DNA from: Cymodocea nodosa
Lineage: Eukaryota; Streptophyta; Magnoliopsida; Alismatales; Cymodoceaceae
NCBI GenBank assembly: GCA_036874045.1
Contig: CM072339.1
Span: 17,057,501 to 17,121,500, forward strand
DNA: 64,000 nt
Reading direction: 5' to 3'
This document shows positions 21,897-49,820 of the stretch, one piece after another; position 1 is the stretch's first letter, and each line of letters begins with the position of its first letter. The translations under genes were made by a program, and so were the position numbers. Under the pieces are notes generated by a model. It worked only from the letters and a program-made list of their open reading frames with translations. It did no database searches and had not been told where the DNA came from.

Positions 21897-22169
21897 ATCT
21901 CCCCCTTTTTGATGATGACAAAACCATATTAAATCAATTATGACTTAAGCTTATTTCTATTGTTTGTGTAAATTTTACCTCTCAGAACTAAAACTCTCAG
22001 ATGTCAATAATTATATAAGTATCAGTTTTCTAATTATCATCTGTCAGATTACAATAATCATTTAAATAGCATCTCCTTTTATAATATATATATGCAATTA
22101 AGATCATAATCATCTTTTTATAATATTTCTCCTCCTTTTTGTCATTAATCAAAAAGATAATTACAGAGA

Positions 22170-22186
22170 ATATATATATATATATA
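22170..22186. repeat. (AT)n microsatellite
   Basis: A short perfect AT run in the non-coding part between the accessory ORF and the element D 3' LTR. Confidence 0.85.
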
Positions 22187-22319
22187 AGAGAATTACAACA
22201 ACGATATCTATAAACAAGAATAATAATTGAACACATTTACAGAAAAATGTATTGTTCAATGAATCAAACAAGTAATACAAACATTACATTTTGTATTCAG
22301 AAACAAACAAAAACAGTTA

Positions 22320-25300: not shown

Positions 25301-26598
25301 TCCACCTTGATTTCATGATTTATTGACCTATAAAACTCAAAACCAAGTTGGATGCACATATACATTGAATATAAATCATATGATGCAAATATAGTATACA
25401 TGCATGCATGAGTTGCCATATATGGAAAGTTGCCAAATTAGGAAGGTTTTGGTCTACAACTTTTTCACATGTACATACATGAATTACTTAAAGTTCTTTA
25501 GTTTAACATCATATTTAAGTGATTTGGCAATCATACAATGTATATAAAGTCATACATTGAAGAATTATAAGAATTATGTCTAATACAAGGGCTAAAAATT
25601 TGTACATTATCAACTATTTAATCCCTAATTCATGCATATGTCTAAAAATATGATTTTCATGTAATCCTTTATAAGAACATATATAATGATGACTTATAAT
25701 CCTTAACATGCATGAATTAACATATATAAAATGCACAAATTGAAACTTTACATGCTACTCCAGACAATTCAGCCTTTGAACTAGTTACTACTTCAACATT
25801 GCCAATTATATTTGCAATAACTTGTTTAATGTCAGGTGCTTGATGCTCTGATTTGTCAATTTCTGCATCATCAGGACTTGTACTAATAGAAAAACTTGAG
25901 CTCATATTTGACTTGTATTTCTTCTCAAGCTTTCTAGCAAGGGAAAATAAAGTCTCATTATCTTCATCAGTTTCAGTGTGTTCGGAACTGATGAGTTTAT
26001 TAGATGCACAATAAGGTACATTGTCTAGACATACATTGTCCTTTGGAAATAAATTTTCATCTAATTTTCCTTTTTCAATAGACTTTGTTTCCTTAGACAT
26101 AATTTTTCTAACTTTTCTTCTTCTATAACATTTTTGTTTCTCCTTTTCAAGTATTGCTGTTTTCTTTTCAAATTGCTCCATAAAATTTTTCTGCTTTAAT
26201 TCTTCTAAGGTACTTTCTATTGCAACGGCCTTTCGAAGACTGTCAACTTTTGTTTTGTCTACAGCAATATTTGATTCTACTTGTTTTGAATATAAAGGAG
26301 TAAAGATAGCTAATTCATGCTCTTCCTCAAATGCATGTAGTCTTGTACCATTTATAGGAGTTTGAGGAGTTCTATTTGATGAACCTACACCTTTTTCCAA
26401 ATATTTTGCATACTGTTCTAAAAATGCAATCTCACCACACTTCATTATGTATTCTCTATCAAATTTACTTTTGTCCACTCGAAATATTTTCTTGAACCAA
26501 GTACGTGGAACTTCATCATTCTCTATTTCTTTTCCTTTTGCATCTCTTCTGCTTTTGCCTTTTCCTCTGCTACGACCTTTGTAGAACTTGGAGACCAT
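22320..26598 (-). pseudogene. Element D accessory ORF (post-pol), split by solo LTR F1
   Basis: The minus-strand ATG at 26596-26598 opens a basic N-terminus (MVSKFYKGRSRGKGKSRRDA), then acidic, coiled-coil-like sequence. Beyond the inserted LTR F1 (23626-25752) a conserved core reads MEIRDLFKFQGLIKLL near 23115, AAFYSNLVENKNFL near 23010, GLKNEGVVV near 22920 and NRIQINWFDVF near 22690. A glutamine-rich tail ends ILRRGR at 22320. The core is homologous to the accessory ORF of Athila A (42192-44348). It resembles the 'putative plant transposon protein' family (PF20167), an assignment I hold only tentatively. I see no signal peptide or membrane segment, so it does not look like an envelope. It is broken besides the insertion. 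An array and a TATTTAAA box precede it. Confidence 0.7.
23626..25752 (-). repeat. F1: solo LTR of a gypsy-type element inside the element D accessory ORF
   Basis: 2127 bp with terminal TGTAAA...TTTACA and flanks TACTA (23621-23625) and TGCTA (25753-25757), a target duplication with one difference. Minus-strand features are those of Athila-group LTRs: a TATA box (TATTTAAAG, 25227-25235), a GC-richer leader with a short open frame (about 24911-25180), and a 3' part with CCTTGTGGATTCGACCC then ACCATGCGCTTAC. No internal domain adjoins it. Related in layout to F2 (about 58113-60165). Confidence 0.82.
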
Positions 26599-26680
26599 CG
26601 TCGCAGGTTATAACAGCAACAAGCGGGAAAGATTTTCTTGACAAAGTTTACAAATAACCTAAGTCCCCGTGTAATAAGTG

Positions 26681-26688
26681 TTTAAATA
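26681..26688 (-). promoter_or_regulatory. TATA-box candidate upstream of the element D accessory ORF
   Basis: Minus-strand TATTTAAA lies 83 bp before the accessory ATG and downstream of the short inverted-repeat units at 26700-26870. The same order is seen in Athila A (42055-42062). Inferred only; no transcript evidence is available. Confidence 0.45.
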
Positions 26689-26699
26689 GGGTTTTTAGG

Positions 26700-26870
26700 C
26701 GTATAACTCAACGTGAAGAGAAGTCGGGTTTAGAAATTAAATAAATATTGAATAAAGTTTTTTCAGTCAAGGTACCTGAAATATTCAAGTATAACTCATT
26801 GAGTTAACTAACCTAACGAGTAAAACGCTGTATAGAGGTAGTTTTACACGTTACCTTATCTAACATAACG
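26700..26870. repeat. short inverted-repeat units (TAACTCAACG / CATTGAGTTA / CTAACGAG)
   Basis: Contains ATAACTCAACGTG near 26703, TAACTCATTGAGTTAACTAA near 26801 and CTAACGAGTAAAACG near 26813. These are the same units that form arrays inside the LTRs of C, D, A and H, here outside any LTR. Confidence 0.7.
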
Positions 26871-27049
26871 TCTAGTTAGTACACTTAAAACAATTTTTGG
26901 ATGCTTCCAACTGAAACGTTTCTAAAACCACACACATGCTAAACTTAACATTATCTTGAGAGCATTGTAAACTATTTGAACATTTTGTCCTTTGAATCTA
27001 AAATAGTTTATTTGTCTTTTTAAATTATTTCATCAAGATTTTAAGAGGA

Positions 27050-28010
27050 CATTAATTCAGATTAACTAAGATTTGTATTCTAAAATATATTAATCTGTTT
27101 TCGACATTGTTAATCCTCCCTCTACAAATATACTTCAAATATATTCAATCAAAATACAAAATATACTTGTAGTGACAATAGATGTTAAGTATAACTATAC
27201 TTTTAAATTTTCTTTTCAGAGACTTCTGTTATCTTGACATCATCAAAAATGATTTCCAGAATCAATTCCTACTGTATATGAATCAAAACACAACTTTGAA
27301 CTTAATGTGATTAATTCAAGGAGAATAAAAGAATGTATCTCAAATAAACGTTTACAAAAGTACTAATGTTGATTCAATAAATCAGTAGTCATATTGGTAG
27401 AAACTATATGCGATTCAAAAATATCTGTAATTAATGAAACAACTTTTTCTTTTCAAAATAGTAAATATTGATAATTTTCTTTAAAAGTTAGTTTGAAAAG
27501 CTTGAATCATACAAGAGCTTTCTAATGTACCCGTGTAATGAGCTTTCAGTCAACAATCCTAGATTTGATCAGGACCTTAGGTTGCCAGATTTAAAGAATC
27601 CTTTTTTAGGACAACAATCCTTACATACCTATCTGCTCAAGTACAAAAGGCTTGTGATCAAACTGATCAGTAAACTCTCAAAGATTTTCACTTTGTAAGC
27701 ACTTTTCATTTTAAGCACAGTATATATGTATTCCATTAATACAGATGCAATAAAACACAAATCTCATACAATTTTTACTTCTATGATTGTACTGAGAATA
27801 TGAATTAGTTTCAATAAGCTTATACTTTTGATTAACAGTTTAAGATGAGTTACATATAACTTATTCTACAAGTTTAATCAATTAAGTCAAATTTATGCAT
27901 GATCATATGCATTTTCCTTGATTCAAAGAAAACATTTAATCAAAATTTTAGAATGTCAAAAGTATTTAATGTTTTTCATTTACACTTCCACTTAAAATCG
28001 TAAAAACCAT
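27050..28010 (-). repeat. Athila 3'-UTR-like block in copia element D
   Basis: On the minus strand this block is homologous to 46150-47130 of Athila A and to the reverse complement of about 62970-63900 in Athila H. The best conserved part is about 27515-27690. It lies between the RNase H end (28187) and the accessory ORF. It is non-coding in the sense direction. It implies sequence exchange between gypsy and copia elements or an old insertion of an Athila fragment. Confidence 0.75.
27525..27698 (+). other. small antisense ORF in the conserved block (57 codons)
   Basis: The open frame reads MYPCNELSVNNPRFDQDLRL... and includes GQQSLHTYLLKYKRLVIK. It is antisense to element D. The same frame is open at 46428-46679 (minus) in A and 63490-63720 (plus) in H. 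Differences among copies include about as many amino-acid-changing as silent ones, so conservation looks nucleotide-level. I do not claim a protein. Confidence 0.35.
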
Positions 28011-28186
28011 TAAAATTGATAAACTACTTAAAATCAATAAGATACTACTATGATTTTACAACAAATACATAGTATCTTAAGCAGCAGTTTAGATATTACT
28101 TTAGATATTTATAATAAGTATATAATATCTATGAGGTGAACAACATCATCAATAATATTTATCTTTTTATGTGGAGTTTAAGCATT

Positions 28187-29730
28187 TTACACATCACATA
28201 GCCTACAAATACCTAAATTTAATCTAATGTTGCAGAATGTATTTTCGTCTAGAGGTTTTGTAAATATATCAGCTAATTGATTTTTACTAGACACAAATTC
28301 TAATTTAATTTTTCCTTTAATTACGTTATCTCTTAGAAAATGATGTCTAACCTCTATATGTTTTGCTCGTGAATGTAATATAGGATTTTTGGAAAGATTT
28401 ATTGTAGAACTACTGTCACAATAAATCTTAGTTGTATCATAAGATAATCCAAAATCTTCTAAAGTTTGCCTTATCCATAGAATCTGTGTGCAACATAGTG
28501 CAGCAACAACATATTCAACTTCTATAGTAGAAAGTGCTACACAGTTTTGCTTTTTACTAAACCATGACACCAAATTATTTCCCAATAATTGACATGTGCC
28601 ACTAGTACTCTTTCTATCAAATTTAAATCCTACATAATTAGCATCAGTATATCCTATAAGATCTATTGAACTATCCTTAGAATAATACAATCCAAAATTT
28701 TTAGTTCCTTGTATATATCTAAATATTCTTTTAACTACAATTAAGTGTGATTCTTTAGGATTAGATTGAAATCTAGCACAAACACACACACCAAACATAA
28801 TATCAGGTCTACTAGCAGTCAAATAAAGTAAAGAACCAATCATACTTCTGTATTTTCTTTGATCTATGGATTTTCCTATGTCATGAATATCTAACTTTAA
28901 AGTAGTACTCATAGGAGTTCCTCGAATCCTTGTATCATTAAAATTAAATTTCTTAAGCATTTCATCTGCATATTTTTCTTGATTTAAAAATATACCTTTC
29001 TCCATTTGCTTAATTTGAAGTCCTAAAAAATATGAAAGTTCTCCTATCATACTCATTTCAAACTGATTAGTCATCTCTTCAAAGAATATTTCTATCAACT
29101 TATCAGAGGTTGCTCCAAAGATTATATCATCTACGTATATTTGAACAACAATCTGATCTTTACCATCTCTCTTAATAAATAGAGTATGATCCACTTTTCC
29201 CATAATATAGCCTTTTTCTATTAAAAAAGTAGACAATCTTTCATACCATGATCTAGGTGCTTGCTTCAAACCATATAAGGCTTTCTTCAATTTATACACA
29301 GTCAGGATTTTTAATATCTTCAAATCCAGGTGGTTGTTTTACTTCTTCATTAATTAAACCATTTAGAAATGCACTCTTTACATCCATTTGATATAATTTA
29401 AAATCCATATAACAAGCATAGGCCAATAATATTCTAATACTTTCTAACCTAGTCATAGGAGCAAATGTTTCATCATAATCTAGTCCTTCTTCATGTGTAT
29501 ACCCTTGTGCAACTAATCTAGCTTTGTTCCTTATAACTTGACTAGTTTCGTTAGTTTTGTTTCTAAAGATCCACTTTGTACCTATTATGGACTGATTTTC
29601 TGGTGGAGAGACTAATTCCCATACATCATTTTTGATGAATTGATTTAGTTCTTCTTGCATTACCACTATCCAATTTTCATCAGATAATGCTTCTTGTATA
29701 TTCCTTGGTTCCGCCATAGAAACAAACATA
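28187..29730 (-). pseudogene. Element D reverse transcriptase and RNase H
   Basis: Minus-strand reverse transcriptase: WIVVMQEELNQFIKNDVWEL near 29660, IIGTKWIFRNKT, NKARLVAQGYTHEEGLDY near 29490, YQMDVKSAFLNGLI, LKKALYGLKQAPRSWYERL near 29260 and VQIYVDDIIFGAT near 29130. RNase H follows: GYTDANYVGFKFDRKST, LSTIEVEYVVAALCCTQILW, KIYCDSSSTINLSKNP, HHFLRDNV, NQLADIFTKPLDE. It ends at 28187. Sequence and order fit Sirevirus pol. Much of it remains open, but it is broken. Confidence 0.93.
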
Positions 29731-31300
29731 CACATACTATTTAAATTTACTAAAGCTCTAGTTTTAACTCCCTCATTAATATTACCAATGACTTGAGTGA
29801 TGGGATGTGATGAAGAATAACGCCAATTTCTTTGATTTTCCTCAATATTCTCATCAACATCTGAAGGTACATCACTTTCATCATTAGTTTGATCATTTAA
29901 GGTCATATTTTTGATTTTCTCAGATAAATCATCAATCTCTCTATTGATCTCTAACTCATTTGGAAAATTGATCATATCATCATTATTAGCTTTAGATTGA
30001 GATTCTCTAAGAGAATTTTCATTGAAGCTTACATGGAGGGTTTTTTCAATAGTCTTAGAAGTCTTGTTATATAGTTTATAGACTTTACTTCTAGTAGAGT
30101 AACCTACAAAAATTCCTTCATCCGATTTGGCTTGAAATTTATCCGTTTTATCCTTAGTATTTAAAATAAAACACTTGCAGCCAAATGGTTTCATATAGGA
30201 AATTTTTGGAACCCTATTAAACATAATTCCAAAAGGAGTTTTATTAACATGATGTCTTAAATGACTTCTGTTAATAACATAACAAGCTGTATTTACTACT
30301 TCAGCCCAAAGATTTTGAGGTAACTTATATTCATTCAACATAGTTCTGGCCATTTCTTGAAGTGATCTATTCTTTCTCTCAACAACACCATTTTGACACA
30401 ATGCTCTTGGAAAAGAAAACTTGTGATCAATGCCATGCTCATTACAATAGTTATCCATTTGATCATTATCAAATTCAGTTCCTTGATCACTCCTAAGTTT
30501 TTGAATAGAGACACTCTGCTCATTTTGAATAAAATTGTAAAACATTTTAAATTTTTCAAAAACTTCTGTCTTAGATGCTAGAAAATATACCCAAGTGTAT
30601 CTAGAGAAGTCATCTACTAAAACGAATGCATACCGTTTACCAACAAGACTCATGATTCTTGTTGGTCCAAATAGATCCATATGTATAAGTTCTAAGACTC
30701 TCTTGCTTGAAATATCAGTTTTGGATTTAAAAGAGTTTTTGTGAAGTTTACCTAACTCACATGCATCACACATAAAGTCCTTTGAGTATTTAATCTTTGG
30801 TAAACCTCTCACTAAATGTTTTCTAGATAGTTTATGTAACAGTTTCATATTTATATGCCCAATCCTTCTATGCCATAGATATGCATCACTAGTTTCAGCT
30901 AGCAAACTTGAATTTAAATCAACTGCACCAGAAGGTAAAGATAAAATACATACAGAACATTTTCTTTTAGCAATAAACTTAATTTCATCTATATGTTTAT
31001 CAATTATTTTGCATACATTATCTTCAAACACTACATAATATCCATTTTCAGTTAGTTTTATGACAGTCATCAAATTAAATCCTAGGTTTTCTACATATAG
31101 TACATTCGAAATAACACAAGTAGGAGTTATTTAAACATTGCCCATACCTATGATTTTATCTTTGCTTTTGTTTCCAAATGTTATACTTCCTTTCATGGTA
31201 TTTGTAAAATTTTGTAATAGACTTTTCTGTCCGATCATGTGAATTGACGCTCCACTGTTCAAGATCCATTTTGATGTTGTTTCCTCCTACAACACAAATT
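29731..31300 (-). pseudogene. Element D protease end, GAG-pre-integrase and integrase
   Basis: The protease active-site region (WILNSGASIHMIG) lies near 31225-31270. GAG-pre-integrase and the zinc-binding part (YLWHRRIGHINMKLLHKL and CDACELGKLHKNSF) span about 30740-30900. The integrase core has LIHMDLFGPTRIMSL near 30680, LRSDQGTEF near 30480 and NGVVERKNRSLQEMART near 30370. The C-terminal part has DEGIFVGYSTRSKVYKLYN near 30090. The order is the copia one. It lies directly upstream of reverse transcriptase in the same element. Confidence 0.92.
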
Positions 31301-33534
31301 AAGAAAAACTTTTTCTTAGTACCTAATGTTGTTGAGGACCAAGTTCATTAAACGCATAATTCTTCTTTTTGTTTAAAAATAGTTTAACATTATCATTTAT
31401 TTTCTTATTAGTTGTAAGTACTATTGATTTATCATTAGCTTCATACTCACATATAGCATTATTGCTTTTACAATCATTCTTTTTGTTTTCAGATGTAGTA
31501 TATTCAAGACCAAACCGATTTTTATCAGATGTTAATTTATTTCGGTCATGCTCATACATTTTAGTAAGTTCATACCAAGATTTTGTACTTGTATTAACAT
31601 TTTCTGTACATACAAAATCTTTTTTTGCATAAGAATTTTTAGTTTTATCACATGCATAATGAGTAATTGGTTTAATACCAGTGTATTGAATTACATGCTC
31701 AGGTTTCTAAATTTTCAGTTTACTACAATTGTCTGAAATTTTAGAAACATTAGAAACTGAATTTCTAGAACAAGAAACAAGATTTTTAGAAACATTTATA
31801 GTCATGTTAGAAGTACAATTTGACAAATCACATTGATTTATATTATTACTCCATAATTCATCCCTTGAAGTACCTACTTCTACATATTTATTACCTTGTT
31901 TCATAATAAAAGGAATTTTAGTCTTAGATTTACTTGAACTGCAACTAATAAATCCTTTATTGGCTTGAGATTCAGGATATTCAGGATAATCAAATCCTAA
32001 GCCAAATTTATAAGACATCGCAGGGGTACTAGTTAGTTTGTCTAACTTAGTTTGACTTAAATTCCATTTCTTAATGGTAGAATTTAAATCTTGCTCTCTC
32101 AGTTTTAATTTATCTATCTCTAATTCAAGTTCATTTATATTGTTTCTCAACATTTCATTTTCAGCATTTATATTCTGTATTTGTTCATGCAAGATACATT
32201 CATTAAATCTAAATTTTTGCAAATCACTAGCATGATTTTCATTATCACATTTAAACTTTTCTAAAGTAGTAGACAGGAAACAATTTTCTTCTTCCATAAT
32301 GGATGAAGATTTTCTAATTTTCTTATTTTCCAGTTTACATACTTTAAGTTTTTGTAATAATGTATGATAAGCACATAATAATTCATCAAAGTTGAAATCT
32401 GAATGACTTTCAGGATCAAATATTACCTCAGACTCATCTACCATGAAGCACACATGAGCAACGTATTCTAACTCTTGTTCTCCTTCTGAATGTGAAGATT
32501 TTGATGCTGATTCCTTAGATTCAGACTCTTCAGACGTGTCATCCCAAGTGACCTTCAAAGCCTTTTTCTTGTAAAACTTTTTCTGAGTTTTCTAAGCCAT
32601 CTTTTTTTGATTTGTCCTACTATGCTTTTCATTTTTCCTCATAGGATAGTTTGGAGAAAGATGTCCAGGTTTTTTACAGTTGTAACATACATACTTTCTG
32701 GATGAAGAATTCTTGTCATTTAGTGATTTTGACGTTGAGGGTTTATCATTTTTGTTCATTTGCTGTTTCCTAGCTTTCCATGCTTTCTTGAATTTCCTAG
32801 TTAGTAAAATCAAATCCTCGTCAGAATCAGTAGATATATCAGAATCTGAATTAATTTCGAAGGTTATTTCTTTCTTTATTTTTAGTTTGTTGTGACTCAA
32901 TGATTCATTTAATTGAACTTCATAAGCTATTAAATTTCCTATAAGTTCATTCATAGTATAAACATTTAAATCTCGTGATTCCTTAATTGATGTTACTTCT
33001 AAGACCATTTAGAACTTAGGGATCTAAGAATTTTCCTCACCAAATCCTTCTGTTCAAAATTCTTTCCTAAACATTTTAAAGAGTTTATGATATCAAGAAA
33101 TCTGGAAAACATCTCAGAAACATTTTCGTCTTCATGCATCTTAAAGAGTTCATACTTAAGAATCAACATGTTTATTTTAGTCTCTTTAACTTGAGAAGTA
33201 CCTTCATGTGAAACTTCTAATGCATACCACACCTCATAAGCAGATTTATATGCCGACACTTTACTGAACTGTTCATAACTCAATGCACAAAATAAAATAT
33301 TTAAGATCTTAGCATTTAGAGTTTCATTTTCTTTTTCAGTAATTGTCCAAGTATTATAAGGAGTAGTTAACAGAGTATATGGTTTAGAAATCATGAACCA
33401 CAACTTATGATCTATACTTTGAAGAAAAAAGTCATTTTATATTTCCAATATTCAAAATGTATTCCATCAAATAAAGGAGGACGATTAAGATTTTGGCCTT
33501 CATATAAAGAAAAATTACCATTTCCAATAGCCAT
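31301..33534 (-). pseudogene. Element D gag and gag-protease linker
   Basis: Gag starts at the minus-strand ATG 33532-33534 (MAIGNGNFSLYEGQ). Its core has LSYEQFSKVSAYKSAYEVWY near 33240, TSQVKETKINMLILKYELF and DIINSLKCLGKNFEQ near 33040. A CX2CX4H knuckle (CYNCKKPGHL) lies near 32670. A long coiled-coil-rich acidic segment (about 31710-32560) leads to protease. Long Gag proteins with an extended tail are usual for Sireviruses. Broken fossil, homologous to the D1 gag at 54976-57180. Confidence 0.88.
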
Positions 33535-33719
33535 CTTACCTTAGATTTTTCAACCTATTTGATTTTAAACAGTCTAAAACTTTAAAACAACTTGAGCCTT
33601 AAATCAAGAAAGTTAAACGTATGCTCAGATATTAATTTCTGTCTAAAAACAAGGAAGGTAGAATAAGCAATGATATTAAATAAGTTGGTATCAATTTTAT
33701 ATCAAAGATTATTGACAAA

Positions 33720-33731
33720 GCTCTGATACCA
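33720..33731 (-). other. Element D primer-binding site
   Basis: Minus-strand TGGTATCAGAGC is an exact match to the initiator-tRNA-Met primer site of copia elements, two bases inside the 5' LTR. Confidence 0.95.
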
Positions 33732-33733
33732 CT

Positions 33734-35486
33734 TGAAGGATCGTATGGCTATACAAGAGGGGGGTGAATTGTGTATTTTTAATATTTTCTAAAATATAAT
33801 TGAAACTTTAAAACTCAAAAACAAGTCGAGACATTGTTTTCATAAAATCATTTTTATTCAAGTTTTCAATTACAATATACAATTCAATTCTCCTTAGAAA
33901 TTGTAGATGCAATTATAACTCGATACCATGTATCATCTAAACAATTTCATAACTACAAATAGAGAAAACTAATTTGCAGAATTTAAAACATTTCTCCCTA
34001 TTTGAGATCTTTATTCTTCTTCTTTTTCTTCTTCAGCAATTCTTCAGTGACGAATATCTTGTCTTTCTCTGCTTCACCGAATTTGCTTTTTCTTTATACT
34101 TCAAATCTTCAGCGACATAAATCTAACCTTTTTTGCTTCACTGAATTTTCTTCCACTTGAGAGATTTTCCCCGAAGAGGTGTTTTCGATCCCTGAAAAAG
34201 ATTTTTCTTTTGGTGTGCAAGGATGGTTTGATCCTTGAAAAGATTTTCGTTTTGTGTGCAAGGATGGTTTGATCAACGAGAATTCTATGCCTTTTATACT
34301 GTATCTTCATTTCATGCATATCTTTCACATTTAACCACTACCAGTTTTCCACTTCTCCACATCTTTTCTTTTTCCTTCATCGAAACACACACGTTCTAAC
34401 CCACGTTTATATTTCAAATTTTCTTTAAACATCAGTCCTAGATCTCTGAAAAATCTCCTGCAAAATAAACTTTCTTGTCCAAAAATTTTTCATCAGTGTA
34501 ATAAGAAGTCGTTACTTTAATGTTAACTAAATGAGTAACACAAGTATATATATATATAACTTAACGTTTCTAACTTAATGAGTTCCTCATGTGCCATTTC
34601 ACGTGACAAGTACTGTAGCTAACTCAACGAACTAAGTCAATGGTGCTATGCTAACTTAACGAACCAGTTTAACCTTTCTTTCGAAAGGTTAAATGATAAC
34701 TCACCGAAAATAGTTTAAGTTTCAGATAGTTACGGTTGTAAGTCTCTGAAAAACTCTTTATATTATAAAACTAGTGAGACACGTGTCAAGACCTGAAAAC
34801 ATGACTTAAGTTACCTTTCGGATAGTTACGACTATAAGTCTCCGAAAAAACTTTAACTCACCGATTCAATAATAAACAAATGTTTTTATAATAAGATTTT
34901 TACCATGTGAAAAAATAACAACTTAAGTTTATAACGCTAACCTAACGTGTTGCCTTAGTGTTCAATATAGCAACTCAACGCGTTTAGTTATGTTAACTTA
35001 ACGAGTTATGCATGTGCACCTCACGTGATACAATACAACATTCGTAACTTATAATTTCATCACGTGTATAATACTAACTTAACGAGTTCGTCTCTTCTTT
35101 TACTCACTAACTTAACGAGTTATCACGTGACCTATTTTAACCTTTAAGCCTCTAACTTAACGAGTTCTCATGTGACCTCTATACAAACAAAACTCTAACT
35201 TAACGAGTTGTCTAAACGTGCACTGTTCATGATACAGAAGATATAACTTTAAGACATATCATGCTTTTCAATAAAAACTCACGTAAACTTAACGTCTAGC
35301 TAAATGAGAAATTAATACAACAAAACGACTAGTTATTAACTTCAGATCCAATACAAACAAGTATTTATATCAGTAAGCTTTTTCTGTATTAATTGATGAT
35401 TTTAATTTCTTTTCACAAGCAATAGTAATTGAGCAAATATGATTATTTTCATTCAGCACACATCATCAAAACAAAAATACTCAACA
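33734..35486 (-). repeat. Element D 5' LTR
   Basis: 1753 bp. Minus-strand ends are TGTTGAGTATTTTTGTTTTG and ATACGATCCTTCA. It carries the inverted-repeat array at about 34555-34870 and the Athila-shared block at about 34851-35343, with several CACGTG palindromes. Confidence 0.93.
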
Positions 35487-35673: not shown

Positions 35674-35678
35674 GGTGC

Positions 35679-36946
35679 CTGTTTAGAATGAAAAAGTGCA
35701 TATTATTAATGGTTAAATGATGATTAATTGCATAATATTTAGCTTATCATATAAGAATTAAGCCATTATGTTATAATTGCATTGTTATATGCTTTAATTG
35801 AAGAATCTACTTAATTTTAGGGAATTAATGTTAATTTAGTACATTTCTGAACTGTCGGTGAGTTGTAGGCTATGAAATTCTTAAGTATCCAAATTTTCTG
35901 ATAATTCGAACAGTTATGTTTAACAGACTGAACATGTAAGATAGTTATGTTTAAATTACCGAGCAGTTATGTTTTGAAAGTTTCCTGAAGTTAATAACTA
36001 GTCGTTTCGTTGCATTAATTTCTCATTTAGCTAAACATTAAGTTAACTTGTGTTTTTATTGAAAAGCATGATATGTTTTAAAGTTATATCTTCTGTATCA
36101 TTAACAGTGCACATTTTGATAACTTGTTAAGTTAGTGAGTAAAAGAAGAGATGAACTCATTAAGTTAGTGTTATACACGTGGTGAAATTATAAGTTACGA
36201 ATGTTGTATTGTATCACGCGAGGTGCACATGTTTAACTCGTTAAGTTAACATAACTAAATGCGTTGAGTTGCTATATTGAACACTAAGGAAACACGTTAG
36301 GTTAGCGTTATAAACTTAAGTTGTTATTTTTGCACTTGGTAAAATTCTTATTATAAAAACATTTGTTTATTACTGAATCGGTGAGTTATCTATAACTATC
36401 CGAAATTGTAGCTGGGCATCGGATAGTTATATGTATAACTCTCCAAAATCTCTTTTTATTTATAAAATAGCTAAGGACACGTGTCATGTTCTAGTAAAGT
36501 GACTTAAGTGGATTTTCGGTGAGTTAGGTGTAACTATCCGAAATGCATCTGAGCATCAGATAGTTAGACCTGTAACTCTCCGAAATGTTATTTTATGATT
36601 AAACTGCTGCTGACACGTGTCGATATCTAGTAGATTTACTTAAGTTATATATCGGTGAGTTAGTTGTAACTATCCGAAATGCATCTAAGCATCAGATAGT
36701 TAAGTTTATAACTATCCGAAATGCATCTGAGCATTGGATAGTTAAGTTTATAAGTATCCGAAATGCACCTGAGCATCAGATAGTTAAGTTTATGCACGTG
36801 TTTTATAGTTAAATCAATGAAGAAAGTCCGTTGAGTTATCTGTAACTCCATAGACTATTTATTTTCTAATATACCACTATAGCGGTTGTAGAAATAGGAT
36901 AGTTGGAAGAAAAACAACAATTGCATGTATCACGCAGGGAGAAGAA
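35679..36946 (+). repeat. Element A left LTR (incomplete)
   Basis: Homologous to the first half of the right LTR (47253 to about 48515) and only about half its length. It contains the copia-shared block (about 35987-36388) followed by an array of TCGGATAGTTA / TAACTATCCGAAATGCATC repeats (36383-36850). Confidence 0.9.
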
Positions 36947-36947
36947 T

Positions 36948-37990
36948 ATGGCATATGCTTATGCTCAAAGATTTCTGAAACCTGTAATTAGCATATGTGA
37001 ATTCTGCAATTCTAAAGGACATGACATTTCTGACTATTTGAAACTGAGACGTTTACAGATGGTTAGATCCCATGAACAACAAATGAATTATCCTCAATAT
37101 AATAGAGATGAGTATGAGAATCCTATCGTTTACCTAACTGATGGTCAGTATAGAATGTGTAATATGTTGAGAGACACAGAAGTTTGGGATAGGTATGACA
37201 GACTAGAGCGTAGTATAGAGCAAAACCTTGAAAAACTGGAATAATTTATGTGTCAGCAATAAGAAGTCAACCAATTAAATTATAAAGAAGCATATTCAAA
37301 ACCTAAAAAGGATATAATTTATGAAACTAAAAAAACCATAATGAAAATTGATCAAAAATTGAATGCAATGAAATTAGATGATCTAGAAAGAAAATTAAAA
37401 GCATTAGACGAATATACAATGAAAATACAAGTTATGTAACAGGATAATGAAAATTATAATGTTATAAACCTACATAATTTGCAAAATATATAGCAAACAG
37501 AGAATATTAATGCAAGAGAATTTAAAGAATGCACTTTAAAACTAGAAACAATTGAAGATCATAATTATGAAAATGACATACAAAAACATCATAAGAGTAA
37601 TGAAAATCTGGAAGATGTTTGTGTAACATTAAAATCTGGAACTGATATACCACCAAGAACTCAAAATGAAAATGATATGAAGGTGAATAAGAGTAAAAAT
37701 CAAAATGATAATGAAAATGTAATAGCTGAAAATCTAGAAATCACTAAAGAACAATCTGAATCTGCTAATGAAGCTAAAAATGATCAAACAAATCAACTGA
37801 AAGAAAAAGAATCTTTGAAATCAAAATCTTTAGCACCCTATCCTAAAAGATTACAACAAACAATACCTGAAAAATAAGAAAAAATCAGAGAAATTTTTGA
37901 AAAAGTACAAGTTAACATTCCTTTGTTAGATATATTGCAGAAAATGCCACCTTGTGCTAAATTTTTGAAGGATTGGTGTACTAAGAAAAG
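36948..37990 (+). pseudogene. Element A gag 3' part and linker
   Basis: A zinc-knuckle-like segment (CEFCNSKGHDISDYLK near 36995) is followed by a long Lys/Glu/Asn-rich coiled-coil-type stretch (about 37260-37870). This corresponds to the end of Athila gag and the linker to protease. The N-terminal gag core is not present here. Broken fossil. Confidence 0.7.
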
Positions 37991-38477
37991 AGAGTGAAAA
38001 GTTCTTAGAAAGGTCTTTTTAGCTGAGCAAAGTAGTTCCCTATTTCTGCCACAAATTCCTAAAAAGTTATCTGATCCTGGAATCCCTGTTATATCATGCA
38101 CCATAGGAAATAGCATTCTAGAAAGAACCTTTATAAACTTAGGTGCAGGTATAAATGTTATGCCAAGTGATATATTTGCATCCTTAGGATTAGAAGGCTT
38201 AACTCCTACTAGTACAGTTATTCAATTAGCTGATAGAAGTATAAGATACCCTAGAGGAAAAATAGAGGATGTGTTAATTAAAATCAAAAATTTTATATAT
38301 CCTATTGATATTGTAATTTTGGATTCCCAACAAATTAAGCATAAAAATAGTGATACATCTTTAATTTTGGGAAGGCCATTTTTAGCAACATCAGGGGCTG
38401 TTATAAATTGTAAAACTGGAGTAATGAAGTTAGCATATGGTAATGAGGATACTCAATTAAATATTTTCAAACCATAA
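37991..38477 (+). pseudogene. Element A aspartic protease region
   Basis: Retropepsin-like segment with TFINLGAGINVMPSDIF near 38130, ADRSIRYPRGKIEDVLIKI near 38230 and LILGRPFLATSGAVI near 38365. LGRPFLAT is the typical Athila flap-to-C-terminal motif. Homologous to the fossil at 1-480. Confidence 0.85.
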
Positions 38478-38754
38478 AGGTTTAAGGAATTAGAAATGTC
38501 CTTACATACCATAGACTTTTTAGAGGATGAAGGAGATATGTTAGATGATGTGATTCAAGAAGAATTAAATGGGAAAATCAATTTTGAAACTTTAGAGGAA
38601 AGTGAAAGCATAAATATAGAAGGAGATCTAGAAGAAATTAATTTAGAAAATGATGATGTTCAATTAGGAGTTTTAGCTTCTGATGGGCAGCATTTAGAAT
38701 TAAAACCTTTACCTCCTGAATTAACCTATATATTTTTGGAAGATAAATGAACCT

Positions 38755-40268
38755 ATCCAATCATTATTGCTTCAGATTTAAAAGAGGATCAAATAGCTAA
38801 ATTAAAAGATGTAGTAAAAAGTTATAAAGAAGCAATAGGATGGACTATGACTGATATAAAAGGGTTAAGTTCAACTTTATGCTGTCACCACATATATTTA
38901 GAAGAAAATGCTAAACCTATTAGAATTCCTGAGAGGAGATTAAATCCAAACCTTAAAGAAGTAGTCAGGAAGGAAATAGTTAAATGGTTAGATAATGACA
39001 TAATTTATCCGATTTTTGATAGCTCGTGGGTTAGCCCAATCCATGTAGTTCCCAAGAAATCAGGATTAACAGTTATTAGGAATGAAAGTCAAGACTTGAT
39101 ACCTACTAGAATTAAATCAGGCTGGAGAGTATGTATAGACTATAGAAAGTTGAATGCTATGACTAGGAAAGATCATTTTCCCTTACCTTTTATAGATCAA
39201 ATGTTGGAAAGATTAGCAGGGCAAGAATATTTTTGTTTCCTAAACGGGTATTCAGGTTATAATAAAATTCCAGTAGCATTAGAGGATCAAGAGAAAACAA
39301 CGTTCACATGTCCTAATGGAACTTATGCTTTTAAAAGAATGCCATTCGGATTATGTAATGCACTAACTACCTTTCAAAGGTGTATGCAGGGCATATTTAC
39401 TAGAATGATTGAAGATTTCTTAGAAATATTTATGGATAATTTTACTGTATATGGCAACTCATATGAAGTTTGTTTAAGCAATTTAGACCAAATATTAAAA
39501 CACTGTGTGAAAAAAAATCTAGTTTTAAATTGGGAAAAATGTCACTTCATGGTTAAACAAGGAATAGTCTTAGGGCATGTTGTTTCTAAGAAAGGGTTGG
39601 AAGTAGATAAAGCTAAAATAGAAGTAATTTCTAATCTACTAGAACCTAAATCAGTAAAAGATATTAGATCATTTCTTGGACATGTTGGTTTTTATAGAAG
39701 ATTTATTAAAGACTTTAGCAAAATAGCTAGACCTTTAACTAATCTATTAAAAGATGTCCTATTTAACTTTGATAAAAATTGTAAGAAATCATTTTTCAGA
39801 CTTAAGACTAGCTTAATTTCAACTCCTATAATTCAAGCACCTGATTGTAACCATCCATTTGAATTAATGTGCGATGCATCTAATTTTACTATAGGAGTAG
39901 TGTTGGGACAGAAAATAGAAAAATCTCCTAAAGTGATTCATTATGCAAGCAAAACCTTAAATGATGCTCAAGTTAATTACACAACTACTGAAAAGGAATT
40001 ATTAGCTGTTGTGTTTGCCTTAGAAAAGTTTAGATCATATCTGATTGGAGCTAAAGTAATAGTATACACAGATCATTCAACTCTAAAACATCTAATAAAG
40101 AAAAAAGAAACTAAACCTAGATTGATCCGATGGATATTATTATTACAAGAATTTGATCTAGAAATTAAAGATAAAAAAGGTTGTGAGAATGTAGTAGCAG
40201 ATCATTTATCAAGATTACAAATAGAAAAATCAAATATTGAAATTAAGGATAATTTTCCTGATGAATAA
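38755..40268 (+). pseudogene. Element A reverse transcriptase and RNase H
   Basis: The Athila reverse transcriptase opens near 38847 with [19 protein letters not shown] and continues with [20 protein letters not shown] near 39020, [20 protein letters not shown] near 39120, [20 protein letters not shown] near 39340 and [15 protein letters not shown] near 39595. RNase H (about 39830-40210) has [38 protein letters not shown] and [11 protein letters not shown]. The frame is long and open, ending shortly before integrase. It is part of a broken element; I give it as a fossil, not as an active gene. Confidence 0.94.
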
Positions 40269-40271
40269 TTA

Positions 40272-41594
40272 ATGACCATCAACACAATGCCTTGGTATGC
40301 AGACATAGTTAATTACTTAGTTACTGGTTTAACACCTAAGGATTGGAATAGACAAGATAAGAAATTATTTTTCTCAAGAGTAAAATATTACTATTGGGAA
40401 GACCCATACTTATTTAAGAAATGTCCTTATCTAGTTTTAAGGAGGTGTGTTCCAGAAACTGAATATCCGAGCATATTGTCTTTTTGTCATGACCAAGCTT
40501 ATGGACGGCATTTTGGTTTAGGGAAAACTACTGTAAAAATTTTGCAATGTGGGTTTTATTGGCCAACACTATTCAAAGATGCTCATAAATATTGCTTAAG
40601 TTGTTTACGATGTCAACAAATAGGAAGAATATCAAAGAGGAATATGATGCCTCTTAATCCTATTGTTGAGGTTGAAATCTTTGATGTGTGGGGAATAGAT
40701 TTTATGGGTCCATTTCCTATGCCTAGTCAATTTAATTACATATTGTTGGGGGTAGATTATGTATCTAAATGGATAGAAGCTATTCCCACAAAAACTAATG
40801 ACAACAAAGTCGTAATACAATTTATAAGAACAAATATATTTGCCAGATTTGGAATACCTAAAGCTATTATCAGTGATAGAGAAACTCATTTCTGTAATAG
40901 AAGTTTTGAAGCCTTAATGAAGAAATATGGAGTAAACCACAAAATTGCAACATCATATCATCCGCAAACAAGTGGACAAGTAGAAAGTGCAAACAAACAA
41001 ATTAAGTTAATCTTAGAAAAAGTAGTAAATCCTACTAGAATAGATTGGGCTAATAGATTGATAGATGCACTTTGGGCTTATAGAACTGCTTATAAAACGA
41101 GCTTAGGTATGTCACCTTTTAGGCTAGTATATGGAAAAAGTTGTCATTTACTTGCTGAAATAGAACATAAAGCTTATTGGGCATTAAAAACTCTGAACAC
41201 TAATTTAAATCAAGCTGCTGAAAATAGAAAAATGCAACTAATTGAATTAGAAGAATTTAGAAATGAAGCTTATTCGAAGACTGTAAGAGAAAAAGAGAAA
41301 ATTAAATTCTGGCATGATAGAAAAATTATTCCAAAAAGCTTTGAAATAGGACAAGAAGTATATCTTTATATGGCTAGATTCCATAACCATCCAGGAAAAT
41401 TAAGATCTAGATGGGCAGTACCTTACATAGTTCGAAATATTTATCCTTATGGAGCTATTGAAATTGAAAATCCTAAAAATCAGAATATATTTAAAGTAAA
41501 TGGACAAAGACTGAAACCTATTTTGAAAACACCAAAAAGCTCCTTTGGAAATATGGAAGAAGTCAGAGTAGAGGACTACTCGAGCTTTACTTAG
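40272..41594 (+). pseudogene. Element A integrase
   Basis: Zinc-binding HHCC region near 40485-40625 ([10 protein letters not shown], then [11 protein letters not shown]), core with [20 protein letters not shown] near 40680, [18 protein letters not shown] near 40865 and [19 protein letters not shown] near 40960. The C-terminal tail has [20 protein letters not shown] near 41410. No chromodomain is present, as expected for Athila. It is followed by non-coding DNA and the accessory ORF, the position where Athila elements carry an env-like gene. Confidence 0.94.
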
Positions 41595-42191
41595 TAGAAA
41601 ATCAGTTTTTTTTGTTGATATAAAAAATAAATAAATATATATATATATAATATAAAAATTGTTGCGGTTCAACCGATCGGATCCATCGGTATGAGTGGAA
41701 CATAAAAAAATATGTATATTAATTTTCAGAAAAAATGTTGGTTTTACCGAAACATAGTATCGATTCAACTGGAAAAATATTTAGGTCTGACCGAAACATA
41801 ATATCGATTAAACCGATAAAAGAAGAAGAAGAAAAACTATTATCTATAGTATTTTTATTATTATATATGTTTGTACAGGGAGTCCGTTGAGTACACTTAA
41901 CTCAATGAGCTTACTCTGTTGAGTCTTGAGTTAGTCAACGAGCTTATTCCATTGAGTTAACTGTAACTCAACGAAGTACTGTAGCTAAGACCGTGGATAA
42001 AATAGTAATAGTTGGTTTGGGAAATGACCCGATTACCTGCCTAAACTTAGGGCTTATTTAAACTAAAACCTAGGGTTTTGGGAGCATTATCCGGCAAATC
42101 ATTTAGGATCTAGAACAGTAGAAATCAGAGCGATTCCATGCCATTGGGTAACTCCATGATGAGGAAAATGACGCCTGAATTCTGAGAAACA
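41595..42191 (+). promoter_or_regulatory. spacer with inverted-repeat array and TATA candidate before the accessory ORF
   Basis: The first part has repeated ACCGATC / TATCGATT strings (41668-41820). An array of CCGTTGAGTTA / TAACTCAACGAA units lies at 41881-41988, then TATTTAAA at 42055-42062, 130 bp before the accessory ATG at 42192. The layout (array, TATTTAAA, leader, ORF) repeats that of element D. A role as an internal promoter is inferred. Confidence 0.45.
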
Positions 42192-44348
42192 ATGGACACC
42201 GCACAATTTTTGAAGGAATCTGAAGAATGGCACACGCAGCAAAAGATCTGGAATATAATAATAGAGAAAGAGCTACAAAAGGTAGAATCAGAATTCTTTA
42301 ACTTGAGGAAAGTTTTAGTTGAGTTAGAAATACAAATACCACAGATAATGGAGACACAGATCAGAGTGGCAACTGAAATTGCAGTTAGCAAAGAAAGAAA
42401 AATCCGGCCAAACAATGAAGTAGCCCTAGAGCTAATTCAACGTAAAGCCAGATTGTGGTTTAAGAAACGCATTGCTAGTCGAGGAAGCTGGGCAATATGG
42501 GAGCAACAACAAGTAAGAGAATAGGAAGAACCAACTGCTGAAAGACCTATTCCTAAGGAACAGCAGTTAGGACCTCTAGTTTAGCCAACAAAGCCATTAC
42601 CACGAGTTGCATTTGCTTGGCCGAGAATTGAAGAAGAAGAGAAAGAATTTACTAGCTTGATCAAAACAGCAAGAGACCAAGGTGATACTCAAGAGATAGC
42701 TACGGCTAAGGCACATATTTTATCTGATGCCATTAAGAAAAAAAGGGTCGAAGAAAGGATAAGGGCCCAATACAAAATAAAAGTTGAATAGTATCAAGCA
42801 GCAACTAAATCAAGTGCTGTAGGAGAGGCTGGTCCTTCGAGACCAGTAATTATAGAAAAAGTTAAACAGAAAGAGCTAGTACCTGTGGCTCGAAGGCTTG
42901 CAGAGCCTACTTTTGTAGATTTAATTTCAGAAGATGAAGAGGAAGAATAGGCACAATTAATTAGAAAAAAGAAAGAAAAAGAAAAAGTGTTTGAATATGA
43001 AGAAATTAAATCTGAGATACCATTGTCAACAGGGCCTATGGAGCAAATTTTTATAAACCTGCTATCCGATTCTGAGGAGGAGTAGGAGCTGTAGTAGCAG
43101 GAGCAAAGAAAAGAAGAAAATTAGGCTGAAATTAGTCTACAGCTTGTACAAGAAGAAACAGAAATTAAGGCAGAAACTGAATTGCCCGTGACTCCATCCC
43201 AATCTGTTACAAAATCAGAAAGAACAGTAACAGAATAGATTGGTAGTCAGGAGGAAGAAGAAAGAGCAGAAAATGAAGAGGCTGAAAGAAGCCATTTAGA
43301 CAAAAATAATTTCATAGATTCTACTGAAGAGCAAGAAACTCTTCAGCAATTTATGGAAAGAATTCAAGATAGAGTGGAAAGTTCTGCCGGCTCACCACCA
43401 CAAATAGAAATAGAAATTCAAGAATCTGTTGAAAATGTTCAAATGCAGCCTATAGAAGAGGAAGAGCAAATCCCTCTGGAACAACAAAGTCACCTTTCTG
43501 ACCCGACTGAAACAACAATTTTGAATAAAGTACATTTTTGTAGTCAGGAAGCTTATACCAAATAACAACAAAAAAGGGGTTATGACATTATTTACAGTAG
43601 ACCAGTAAATTGGGATGGAATGCAAGAAATCAAAGATCTATTTGAATTCCAAGGTCTACTGCAATTCATTTCTCAAGAGAGAGGGCATGCAATATATGAG
43701 AATTTAGTGCCCTGTTTTTATGCAAATTTAAGAGAAAGAGAAGGAAGATTAATTTCAAACGTGAAGGAAGCTGATGTACAGATAACACTAGAGCTTCTCC
43801 ACAACATTTTTGGTTTAAAGAATGAAGGAATAAAAATTTTGGAAGATACAACTGCCGTCGAGTGGACTAAACAGGAAATCAAAGATTGTTTAGCTATCAA
43901 TCCTAGTGTACCTTTATTAAACAGATTGAAGCATTTAAGTGGTAAAGCACACATGGTAGCTAACATTCTGATTAAAAATGTCTATCAACGACGGGGCCAT
44001 GACATAGAATTAAGTCAATTTGTCAAATGGGCCACATATGCAGTTGTAAATAAGATTCAAATAAATTGGTCAGTAGTTTTTATCTCCAAGTTGAAAGTAG
44101 TAAAGAAAAAATTGTTTTATGGAGATTTGATTCCACTACTAATGGTGGACTGTATCGATTTCACTAAACGGACATCAAAAAGGATCAGATCAAGAACCAT
44201 TTCAGTGAAAGAATACAGAAATTTTGTAGCTGCAGAGATAGCTATACCTTCTGGAGGAATTACAGGAGATGTAGAAAGAATTAATCAATTAGAACTTCAA
44301 TTAGAAAAACTCCAGAAGGAAGTAGATGAACTTAGGAATAGAGATTAA
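42192..44348 (+). pseudogene. Element A accessory ORF (post-integrase)
   Basis: The N-terminus (MDTAQFLKESEEWHTQQKIW) is coiled-coil-like. The middle is very acidic (Glu-rich, about 42950-43560). The C-terminal core (43620-44348) is open: MQEIKDLFEFQGLLQFI, LVPCFYANLREREG, FGLKNEGIKIL, VYQRRGHDIELSQFVKWATY, NKIQINWSVVF and a closing coiled coil (INQLELQLEKLQKEVDELRN). The core is clearly homologous to the element D accessory ORF and tentatively like the 'putative plant transposon protein' family PF20167. No membrane segment or signal peptide is seen, so despite its env position it is not recognisably an envelope. The total span (about 2.15 kb) is close to that in D once F1 is set aside. Broken in its first part. 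Confidence 0.72.
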
Positions 44349-45437
44349 ATTGTATTGTTCGTCTACTTGTGTAAAATTGTATGATGTACTTGTAATGTAA
44401 TTGATTCATATTAATGAATATAATTTTTCAGATGCAATTTTCATACATGTTTTGGATGTGAAATGAATGGAATTTATTGAATATTATGTAATTTGTGGAA
44501 CTTTATGAATGAATATATAACAGATTTACAATTTGCTGAATGACAGGATAAATGCTTAAAAATTTCTGCATGTTGCAAGGTAAAATGTAAATTCTGCATA
44601 ACATAAAATGACCTGCAAGTTAAATCCTTATATAATGTTCAGATTTAAACGAATTTTAATCAGAATGATGCATTAATGACATAGATTTAACTTTATTTCA
44701 GTTAGCAGAATAAACAAAGAAAAGAACAGAGAGGAACTTACGAGAGTAAAACTTAGAAGTTGCCAAGTGTTAACTCAATGAAGTAAGTCCGTTGAGTTAA
44801 ACGTAACTCCACGAGGTCAGTAATATAATATAAGGTCACTCCGTTGAGTTATCTGTAACTCAACGAAGTTAGTCTGTGGAGTTAGCAATAGTAACTGACT
44901 ATGTTCCATTGAGTAATCTGTAACTCAACGAGGTTAGTTCGTGGATTAAGCAGAACGGTTATTCTTTTAACTAGGAACGAAACTTCGTCGGTTAGTAGTT
45001 ACCAAAATTTGAAATTAGTAGTGGTACACGTACCCATAAAAATAGGAACCACGATGCACATTGCAAGACACGTTCTTGCAACAAGATTTATTCACTTTAT
45101 GGAAGTGCAGTATATATATAAAACAAAATGCTATTTACGAGTTACCAGCACTTTTAAAAGAAAGGAGAATGCGTTGGAGGAACTAGAAGGAGAAGTAGCT
45201 GATTCAACTTCATCCGACAACAAATATTTATTGAATGGAAAGCTTCAGAGTGGTATGTAATTAATCTTCTGCTATTTATTTATGAGCACATGGACCCGTT
45301 CTCTAAGCACTAAACGATTAGTAAGAATACCTACCTAGGAATTTTCATTATAGAGGAGCATTGAAAAATTTTCTGAACTGAACTTTAACAAAATTCCTTA
45401 GGGTGTAGCTAACATTTCTTTAAAAGAGAATGTAGAG
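44349..45437 (+). promoter_or_regulatory. non-coding segment with second array and TATA candidate upstream of a gag-like fragment
   Basis: An AT-rich tail of the accessory ORF is followed by an array at about 44767-44960 (TCCGTTGAGTTATCTGTAAC then TCAACGAAG and variants). A TATATATATAAAA string lies at 45111-45125 and a leader leads to the ATG at 45438. The open frame 45009-45260 has no recognisable domain. The layout resembles the end of an LTR and the 5' leader of another Athila-like unit. Confidence 0.4.
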
Positions 45438-45701
45438 ATGGCTGCTCTAGTAGAAAAACCATTAGGAGAGATTTTGTATCCTGAATTAGTTGATAAACCT
45501 TCTTGTATTCGATTGCCAACCTTTGAGGGAGATAGGTTTGAACTGAAATCTAATTATATTAGTCAATTGCCACATTTTCATGGATTAGAAAGAGAGGATG
45601 CCTATTATTTCCTTAGAGAATTTAATGAAGTTTGTCAAATGATGAAAATGCCAAACATGACTATAGATGCTATTAAACTTAGATATGTCCCTTTTTTTTA
45701 G
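45438..45701 (+). pseudogene. gag-like N-terminal fragment near the 3' end of element A
   Basis: MAALVEKPLGEILYPELVDK, then FELKSNYISQLPHFHG, FLREFNEVCQMMKMPNMTID and AIKLRYVPF. Homologous to the start of the Athila gag at 10429-10690. Gag belongs at the other end of an Athila element, so its position between the accessory ORF and the 3' untranslated region is out of place and suggests a rearranged or captured 5' portion. Only a fragment. Confidence 0.75.
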
Positions 45702-45871
45702 ATATATCCCTTTTATCTGTGAATGAAAAGTTTTTCAGAATCAAAAATCGGAATATGTAGAAGGAGATACAAGCGGAACAAGGTATGTAACCAATTACTT
45801 ACCCTGAATTTTAAATCAAATAAAACTGTATTCATGCCTACTACAATTACTATACTTATTGTCAAATCTTT

Positions 45872-45911
45872 TACATTGAGGACAATGCAAAATGTAGGTA
45901 TGGGGGGGAGG
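45872..45911 (+). other. Athila polypurine-type motif (internal)
   Basis: ACATTGAGGACAATGCAAAA then TGTAGGTATGGGGGGGAGG, nearly identical to 14381-14413. It lies about 1.3 kb before the LTR, separate from the LTR-adjacent tract at 47230-47252. Confidence 0.65.
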
Positions 45912-46149
45912 TAATTAAAGTAACAACTATGTAAGTTTGTTAATTAAAGAAATTAAAATGGTACTGCAAAGTTGTGGAAATTGAAAATTTTTATGAACTT
46001 GCTGTAACTATCCGATAATTGAGACTGTAAAATTTATATAAACTGCAACTGCTTGAATGTTATATTTAGAAGGCTATATAAGATGCTATAGAATTTACTA
46101 TTTATGCAAATCTAGATATAGTATCTTATGTTTTTTCTAAATTTCATGA

Positions 46150-47130: not shown

Positions 47131-47229
47131 TATTTTTATGCTAAACAGAAGAAAAAAAGAAAGAAGAAGAATTAATTCTAGCACTTTTAGAAAGACCAAT
47201 TAATTAGATCTTAGTTTGCTAAGGGACTA

Positions 47230-47252
47230 GCAAAATTTAGGTATAGGGGAAG
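47230..47252 (+). other. Element A polypurine tract at the right LTR
   Basis: GCAAAATTTAGGTATAGGGG followed by AAG directly precedes the LTR start TGTTTAGAATG. The H copy (reverse strand, 62922-62945) reads AAATTTAAGTATGGGGGAAG. Confidence 0.8.
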
Positions 47253-49815: not shown

Positions 49816-49820
49816 GTGCC

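Follow-up and report, generated by a model that had tools for sequence, protein, structure and literature searches.

An LTR segment common to Sirevirus-like Ty1/copia and Athila-like Ty3/gypsy retrotransposons of Cymodocea nodosa

The LTRs of an Athila-like Ty3/gypsy retrotransposon in a 64,000-nucleotide stretch of Cymodocea nodosa DNA (the window) contain a block of 402 bp (35987–36388; 47560–47961) that is 91–97% identical to part of the LTRs of a Ty1/copia family, here called D, which is assigned to the Sireviruses. Athila LTRs in the empty state are present in the host genome, and the junctions of the block can be read against them; the block stands in both LTRs of the Athila-like element, its bearers have spread, and hybrid LTRs that enter the block from Athila and leave it into D are found. 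We infer, with fair confidence, that a segment of a Sirevirus D LTR was copied into an Athila LTR by template switching, that this first exchange took place during reverse transcription and happened once, and that the captured block then spread and served as a bridge between the two families.

Elements of the window and their classification

The window is a nest of LTR retrotransposons, whose limits were set by self-BLAST and inspection of the flanks. The copia element E (plus strand) has its 5' LTR at about 15267–17115, followed by a PBS, and its internal part runs from 54843. E is split by the copia element F (minus strand; LTRs 54842–53405 and 18569–17136; duplication TGTTC) and, from about 60940 to past the window end, by H, a minus-strand relative of Athila. 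Three elements lie inside F, namely A (Athila-like, plus strand), D1 (solo LTR, plus strand), and D3 (copia, minus strand). Element A (35680–49815) sits in the reverse transcriptase region of F, between target duplications GTGCC at 35675–35679 and 49816–49820. Its 3' LTR (47253–49815; 2563 bp) starts with TGTTTAG after a purine tract and ends with CAAACA before GTGCC; its 5' LTR (35680–36946) is 94.0% identical to 47253–48519 by BLAST, and this similarity ends at 36946, where gag-like sequence starts. An internal deletion in A removed the second half of the 5' LTR, the PBS, and the start of gag, and the target duplication was retained. D1 (18997–20577) is a solo LTR of copia family D of 1581 bp with the duplication CTTCT on both sides. 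D3 (21021–35486), of the same family, has its 5' LTR at 35486–33734, the adjoining PBS TGGTATCAGAGC, an internal part to 28187, then a linker, and a truncated 3' LTR at 21896–21021. Elsewhere in the window, direct repeats of about 370 bp (2222–2591 and 7159–7529; 93% identical) flank minus-strand copia pol ORFs, and these together are one further copia element.

On their sequence features, family D is classed as Ty1/copia Sirevirus and A as Athila-like Ty3/gypsy. The domains rve, SH3, and RVT_2 of D3 lie in 31130–29292 (minus strand), with RVT_2 again in 29338–28187 (minus strand); the integrase precedes the reverse transcriptase, which is the Ty1 domain order. The PBS TGGTATCAGAGC at the D3 LTR end is what we take to be a match to the tRNA-Met PBS. 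It has been reported, in the available text of PMC6317226, that a tRNA-Met PBS is common to most Ty1 groups and that 74% of SIRE elements have an extra ORF between RNase H and the 3' LTR; the linker of D3 contains an extra ORF at 22700–23422 (minus strand), which over 118 aa shares 30% identity with the one in A. The Sirevirus PPT is given as AGGGGGAG, followed by AT and then by the LTR start TG, with several PPT copies in the linker, in the accessible part of PMC2829016. In C. nodosa, AAAAAGGGGGAGAT-TGTTGAG is present in D3 and in the D element of host-genome locus L029, and F too has the Sirevirus PPT/attachment 12-mer, AGGGGGAG-AT-TG standing at the 3' LTR of both D and F; three PPT copies occur in the L029 linker and only the terminal one in D3. 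The D linker is similar across three D elements, D3 and those of the L007 and L029 regions. In A, RVT_1 and RNase H (38751–40268) are followed by the integrase (40269–41594), the Ty3 order, and an extra ORF downstream of pol (43566–44348) gives a weak Transposase_32 match (19.7 bits vs. a cut-off of 45). For A, the best 120 of 7981 database matches are 53–68% identical and mostly plant Ty3-type pol proteins without lineage names. A relative of A at L029 has ATGCCGCCGTTGTCAGGGA after its 5' LTR, presumably a likeness of the Athila tRNA-Asp PBS; the corresponding PBS is deleted in A. As far as the available text of PMC2410132 goes, an extra ORF downstream of pol is not found in every Athila element.

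The block, its empty site, and its junctions

The first-pass annotation had claimed that a block of about 90–95% identity is common to Athila and D LTRs with unrelated sequence on both sides. A BLAST search of the window with 35987–36388 as query bears this out at the 91–97% given above; the flanks of the A and D blocks are unrelated, and on the right the aligned similarity reaches through TCGGTGAGTTA and then ends. The block lies in the A 5' LTR at 35987–36388 (plus strand; BLAST and alignment) and in the A 3' LTR at 47560–47961 (plus strand; 96.3% to the 5' copy; 386 bp between CTGAAGT and TCGGTGAATTA), the second copy having been rightly recognized but placed one base off, at 47559–47960. 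A long block is present in D1 (19140–19617, plus strand; BLAST and alignment), in the D3 5' LTR (34866–35343, minus strand), and in the D3 3' LTR (21276–21753, minus strand), the two D3 copies being found by BLAST, alignment, and nhmmer. All three match the A block as two pieces flanking an insert, which to the A 5' block are 92.6% and 94.9% identical in D1 (19140–19288 and 19358–19629), 94.6% and 95.6% in the D3 3' LTR (21753–21605 and 21535–21264), and 91.3% and 94.9% in the D3 5' LTR (35343–35195 and 35125–34854); the top identity, between the second Athila copy and a D piece, is 97.1%. An older copy, C, which the earlier annotation did not contain, lies in the D-type 5' LTR of E (15420–15906, plus strand) and is about 83% (82.7–82.9%) identical to A. 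A shorter and more diverged form had been assigned to H; a partial block-like piece of 145 bp does exist there (62363–62507, minus strand; 76%; nhmmer E 3e-28), but it sits elsewhere in the LTR. Chance similarity was ruled out as the origin of the block by nhmmer on 10 simulated windows, the best chance match having E 1.4 vs. E ≤3e-28 for nine real pieces.

The block begins 307 bp into the A LTR (2563 bp) and 143 bp into the D1 LTR (1581 bp); since the Athila LTR is 2563 bp long, the block is a segment of its upstream part. The two A copies are 96.4% identical, and A and D copies 93.9–96.9% (392 compared columns); the three D copies are 94.8–96.3% identical among themselves (480 columns), so the A block is as close to those of D as these are to one another, and copy C is 85.1–87.0% identical to all A and D copies. 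Among the window copies, one substitution only sets both A copies apart from the three D copies and C, and the transfer appears to have occurred shortly before the window copies arose. ACGTG cores are in excess in most block copies, no simulation of 500 reaching the count in four of six copies (40 of 500 for the A 5' copy and 7 of 500 for C). TATA-like words occur downstream of the block in both LTRs, one occurs inside it, and in D one lies upstream; in our judgement the block is upstream of the strongest TATA-like words in both LTRs. The words inside the block and upstream in D make a position in the U3-like part of the LTR likely only, and the block may be regarded as a putative regulatory segment. 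If it carries regulatory sites, a single step would have given Athila part of a Sirevirus control region.

Block-less Athila LTRs of the same group stand beside a D copy at two loci, L028 and L024. The empty site of L028 reads CCTGAAGT, 39 bp of native sequence, and TCAGTGAGTTATCTATAA; in L024, TTGAAGT flanks the site on the left and TCGGTGAGTTATCTATAA flanks it on the right; LTRs of block-bearing Athila read CCTGAAGTTAATAAC...CTGAATCGGTGAGTTATCTATAA, and D reads TCTGAAGTTAATAAC...CTGAATCGGTGAGTTAAAG. The native stretch is thus bounded by CTGAAGT and TC(A/G)GTGAGTTA, the same words that D has at both block ends, and the 39 bp of L028 are replaced by 386 bp (474 bp in long D forms). Extra repeat units in D had been described beforehand, and in the window they stand, with 474 vs. 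386 bp between the same two short words, but they do not separate the families; both forms are found in both families in the genome, where the short form is the one to which 25 D loci align and the long one occurs in some Athila copies. Native Athila and D overlap by 7 nt on the left (6 in L024) and by 8 nt (L028) or 11 nt (TCGGTGAGTTA; L024) on the right, and when A and D were joined at random, overlaps of 7 nt or more arose in 0.18% of trials, of 8 nt or more in 0.10%, and of 11 nt or more in 0.015%. The block-bearing copies that were compared have also lost about 12 bp immediately to the left of the left joint. All 12 loci with Athila sequence on both sides, which were chosen by block identity, have both junctions in common save single substitutions; the same left junction is found in 28 further Athila rows (8 + 20) that were selected by a pattern for it, and all 40 Athila-left rows and the three hybrid rows have it with the same small loss beside it.

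A native stretch lying between words common to D was swapped for the block, which indicates replacement at short homologies. The exchange between superfamilies that the first-pass annotation had put forward is supported by this empty site and by replacement between words common to D without target duplication. The alternative named there was a mobile unit or satellite in its own right that entered each LTR independently; the block does have internal repeats and does occur in two families, but it replaces native sequence where an insertion would add to it, it has neither ends nor duplication of its own, and its junctions are the same in 12 loci. Independent insertion of a small element is ruled out by the empty site, and we give the mobile-unit explanation practically no credence. 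It is also very improbable that the block is what two later deletions left of a D element or solo LTR that had inserted into Athila LTR sequence: nested insertions are common here, and at L028 a D LTR directly adjoins the Athila LTR, but neither D LTR end nor a target duplication is present, and both deletion ends would have to hit words common to native Athila and D, with the native stretch lost.

Template switching in reverse transcription is favoured by the two short-homology joints, the replacement, and the presence of the same U3 in both LTRs. Athila RNA, presumably packaged together with Sirevirus RNA, would have been reverse transcribed, and the growing DNA would have switched template and back within U3, so that a piece of the upstream (U3-like) LTR part of a family D Sirevirus took the place of about 39 bp of native Athila LTR through a double exchange directed by two short homologies, CTGAAGT at the left end and TC(A/G)GTGAGTTA at the right end. 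Strand transfer would then have placed the same U3 in both LTRs, the hybrid Athila would have made new copies (the 147 block-bearing left junctions counted below), and the block would later have acted as a homology bridge from which hybrid Athila/Sirevirus LTRs arose by DNA recombination. Such a course requires Athila and Sirevirus RNA in one particle.

The exchange might instead have been a DNA-level conversion or double crossover between integrated D and Athila LTRs, the block being copied to both LTRs by later retrotransposition, which we consider the main rival, though less likely. Divergence between the two LTRs of A is lower within the block (K2P 0.037) than in the remainder (0.076), as DNA conversion might produce, and three independent hybrid LTRs show DNA-level recombination inside the block. 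In addition, Athila LTRs have a 136-bp repeat that is detectably similar, mostly in inverted orientation, to segments of LTRs of the D type (nhmmer E 1e-13 to 2e-11) and to a segment of an F-type LTR (E 3e-7), the best of 10 simulated windows giving E 5.3, with matches at 36378–36793, 47951–48366, 15999–16118, 21103–21223, 34696–34813, and 12186–12305, so that Athila, D, and F LTRs have more motifs in common than the block. However, homology before the capture amounted to only 7 and 8–11 nt at the two points, conversion normally needs longer homology than 7–11 nt, and the observed hybrids exploit a block already in place.

Spread, direction, and later recombination

The host genome (374.6 Mb) was searched with the block, and 41 places were found, 40 of them full length; as scoring covered the best 40 of 4545 candidates, these are a sample of the top matches. 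The flanks of these 40 loci, read as 30 and 10 loci and without the partial 41st match, are Athila on both sides in 12, D on both sides in 25, and Athila on the left and D on the right in three; the 12 include the two from the window itself and L008, whose right side is truncated by another LTR. Junctions were counted with up to 3 mismatches, and reversed-pattern controls gave 0. The patterns were built on few copies, so the numbers are those of copies like these rather than of whole families, and one element may count twice: 6433 block-less Athila left junctions, 147 block-bearing ones (about 2% of those counted for this Athila group), and 4220 D left junctions with the block. A two-ended pattern of the exact window form has 13 matches in the genome. 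Of 20 rows hand-picked from 100 listed block-bearing left junctions, 19 run into an Athila LTR and one (L074) into D. At least 40 places are at least 98% identical to D1 18994–19400 (own copy included; best 40 of 4074 scored; the 41st is 90%), and such matches to the D1 LTR start with the long block mean that long-block D copies include young ones. One pattern each in the virus and prokaryote collections found no block copies.

The direction of transfer was most likely from D to Athila, since the block is present in each of the four D-type LTRs of the window, even in the old one of E, and is absent from its place in H, from the empty Athila copies, and from most of the Athila left junctions counted; for D this call rests on a sample of block-bearing copies, the only ones that D-LTR searches recover. 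Both A LTRs carry the block, which was therefore acquired before A inserted. Three close LTR pairs (K2P 0.062, 0.044, and 0.049), each assigned to a single element solely from spacing and similarity, have the block in both members, as does a fourth (L056/L057; K2P 0.101), whose left side is rearranged and partly inverted and which may not be one element. Presence in both members of these pairs and in both A LTRs indicates that the bearers were mobile.

The genome scan and block trees suggested in the first-pass annotation yielded many bearers in Athila and in D, and the trees did not settle on one Athila clade. In a 34-row tree, a clade (98/84) nested in the D rows united the 12 Athila rows with the L029 hybrid; this clear single clade was lost at 56 rows (22 added, 9 Athila and 13 D, long Athila blocks included), where Athila rows need 5 changes and four long Athila blocks fall among D rows, and the test neither favours nor rejects a single Athila clade (p-AU 0.45). 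There may have been two captures, or the block may have been copied from D again at a later time, and later exchange via the block would blur the block tree. Several captures, or a continuing flow from D to Athila, would overlap with both mechanisms discussed above and have, in our judgement, rather less than even chances: besides the long and short Athila blocks and the long ones among D rows in the 56-row tree, there are different inner deletions and two right-hand continuations, TCTATAAC and GCTGTAAC. Against it stand the single clade that is not rejected on 56 rows and the one left junction kept by the 40 Athila-left rows (28 of them chosen by it) and the 3 hybrids, a common junction that argues for one capture.

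It was also considered that the Athila short form derives from the D short form, and this idea was set aside because the deletion points differ. At the deletion mark, CACGTTTTGATAACT, intact or decayed, is found in the 12 Athila rows, and the D rows, 12 of 25 being readable, are all of the GTTTAGA(C/T)AACT or GTTAAGACAACT kind; in the alignment, all 12 Athila rows have T at the deciding position, and all 31 D rows have A.

Once Ty1 and Ty3 LTRs both have the block, they recombine at it. Three of the 40 loci are hybrids with Athila on the left, the block, and D on the right (L007, L011, and L029). Since L007 and L011 lie inside one 19.8-kb stretch that is present twice at 99.5% identity, they count as one event, and with L029 there are two independent hybrids; L074, whose block continues into a D LTR and has a 67-bp deletion that the L029 hybrid lacks, is a third. 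The reciprocal form, with D on the left and Athila on the right, was found at none of the 25 D-left loci. L029 keeps a decayed Athila deletion mark in its block and L007 has the D mark, so the crossovers did not fall at the same point of the block. At L029, LTRs of two forms border an Athila internal region, on the left Athila–block–Athila and on the right Athila–block–D, the latter of which leads into a D internal region from its first base. The outer flanks differ (ACACA vs. CCTTG), as is expected where two insertions recombine by the criterion in the available text of PMC1950507, and the D end on which this comparison relies may be that of another D copy. In the two Athila LTRs at L029, the left parts are 85% and 92% identical to A, more divergent than those of a young pair should be, and only one of the two has the 67-bp block deletion, which points to more than one event there. 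Two stretches on C14 (10938000–10957800 and 11527500–11547300; L033–L036), 0.6 Mb apart, are 99.5% identical over at least 19.8 kb and are a recent segmental duplication or an assembly duplicate.

Three independent hybrid LTRs indicate that recombination inside the block continued. It may be proposed, tentatively, that the block is a homology bridge through which exchange of regulatory DNA goes on by homologous recombination, and that older signs of traffic are earlier rounds of the same process; if so, lineages with separate proteins evolve a partly common promoter region. Among these signs, a block-like piece is also found downstream in several block-bearing Athila LTRs, and a stretch of 816 bp in the D3 linker (27122–27937, minus strand) shares 77% identity with the 3' region of H and 71% with the 3' region of A, the order of this stretch and the extra ORF being reversed in D. 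The block-like piece of H, the 816-bp stretch, and the related extra ORF look like earlier exchanges between the same two lineages.

Meaning and comparison with known systems

Ty1 and Ty3 LTRs are used as markers on the premise that they are independent; with them elements are defined and dated and annotation libraries are fed. With donor, recipient, empty site, and junctions resolved, the present case indicates that an LTR segment can cross the superfamily line and spread, and that classification and dating based on LTRs can be misled by shared blocks. It also makes testable whether copia and gypsy RNAs meet in one particle. In a literature search that covered subscription papers poorly and is weak evidence on this point, no report was found in which a segment of an LTR had passed between Ty1 and Ty3 elements.

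Published accounts already cover recombination within families and among Athila families, as seen in the available parts of PMC5668417, PMC2410132, and PMC1950507. Marco and Marin (2008, PMC2410132) reported that Athila families in Arabidopsis recombine; as here, parts including the LTR and part of gag were swapped with distant relatives and then persisted, but the partners there were Athila families (the word copia is absent from the available text), whereas here the partner belongs to another superfamily and a piece of LTR moved. Similarly, in the bursts of ONSEN/Copia78 (Sanchez et al. 2017, PMC5668417), LTR elements active together recombine as they do here, with the difference that, in the text available, the partners are within one family. 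Neumann et al. (2019, PMC6317226) found SIRE extra ORFs of many kinds and discordant trees of Ty1 domains; the accessible part of that study suggests ancient Ty1 recombination and a possible origin of SIRE extra ORFs from different sources, which is in line with the present case, but neither an LTR segment nor Athila as donor or recipient figures in that part. Sabot and Schulman (2007, PMC1950507) described, in the portion available, complex insertions sharing an LTR that arise by DNA recombination or template switching. L029 resembles their DNA-recombination form in its chimeric inner LTR and perhaps in the lack of a matching flanking duplication; the elements in that study are closely related, whereas the chimeric LTR of L029 joins a Ty3 and a Ty1 element.
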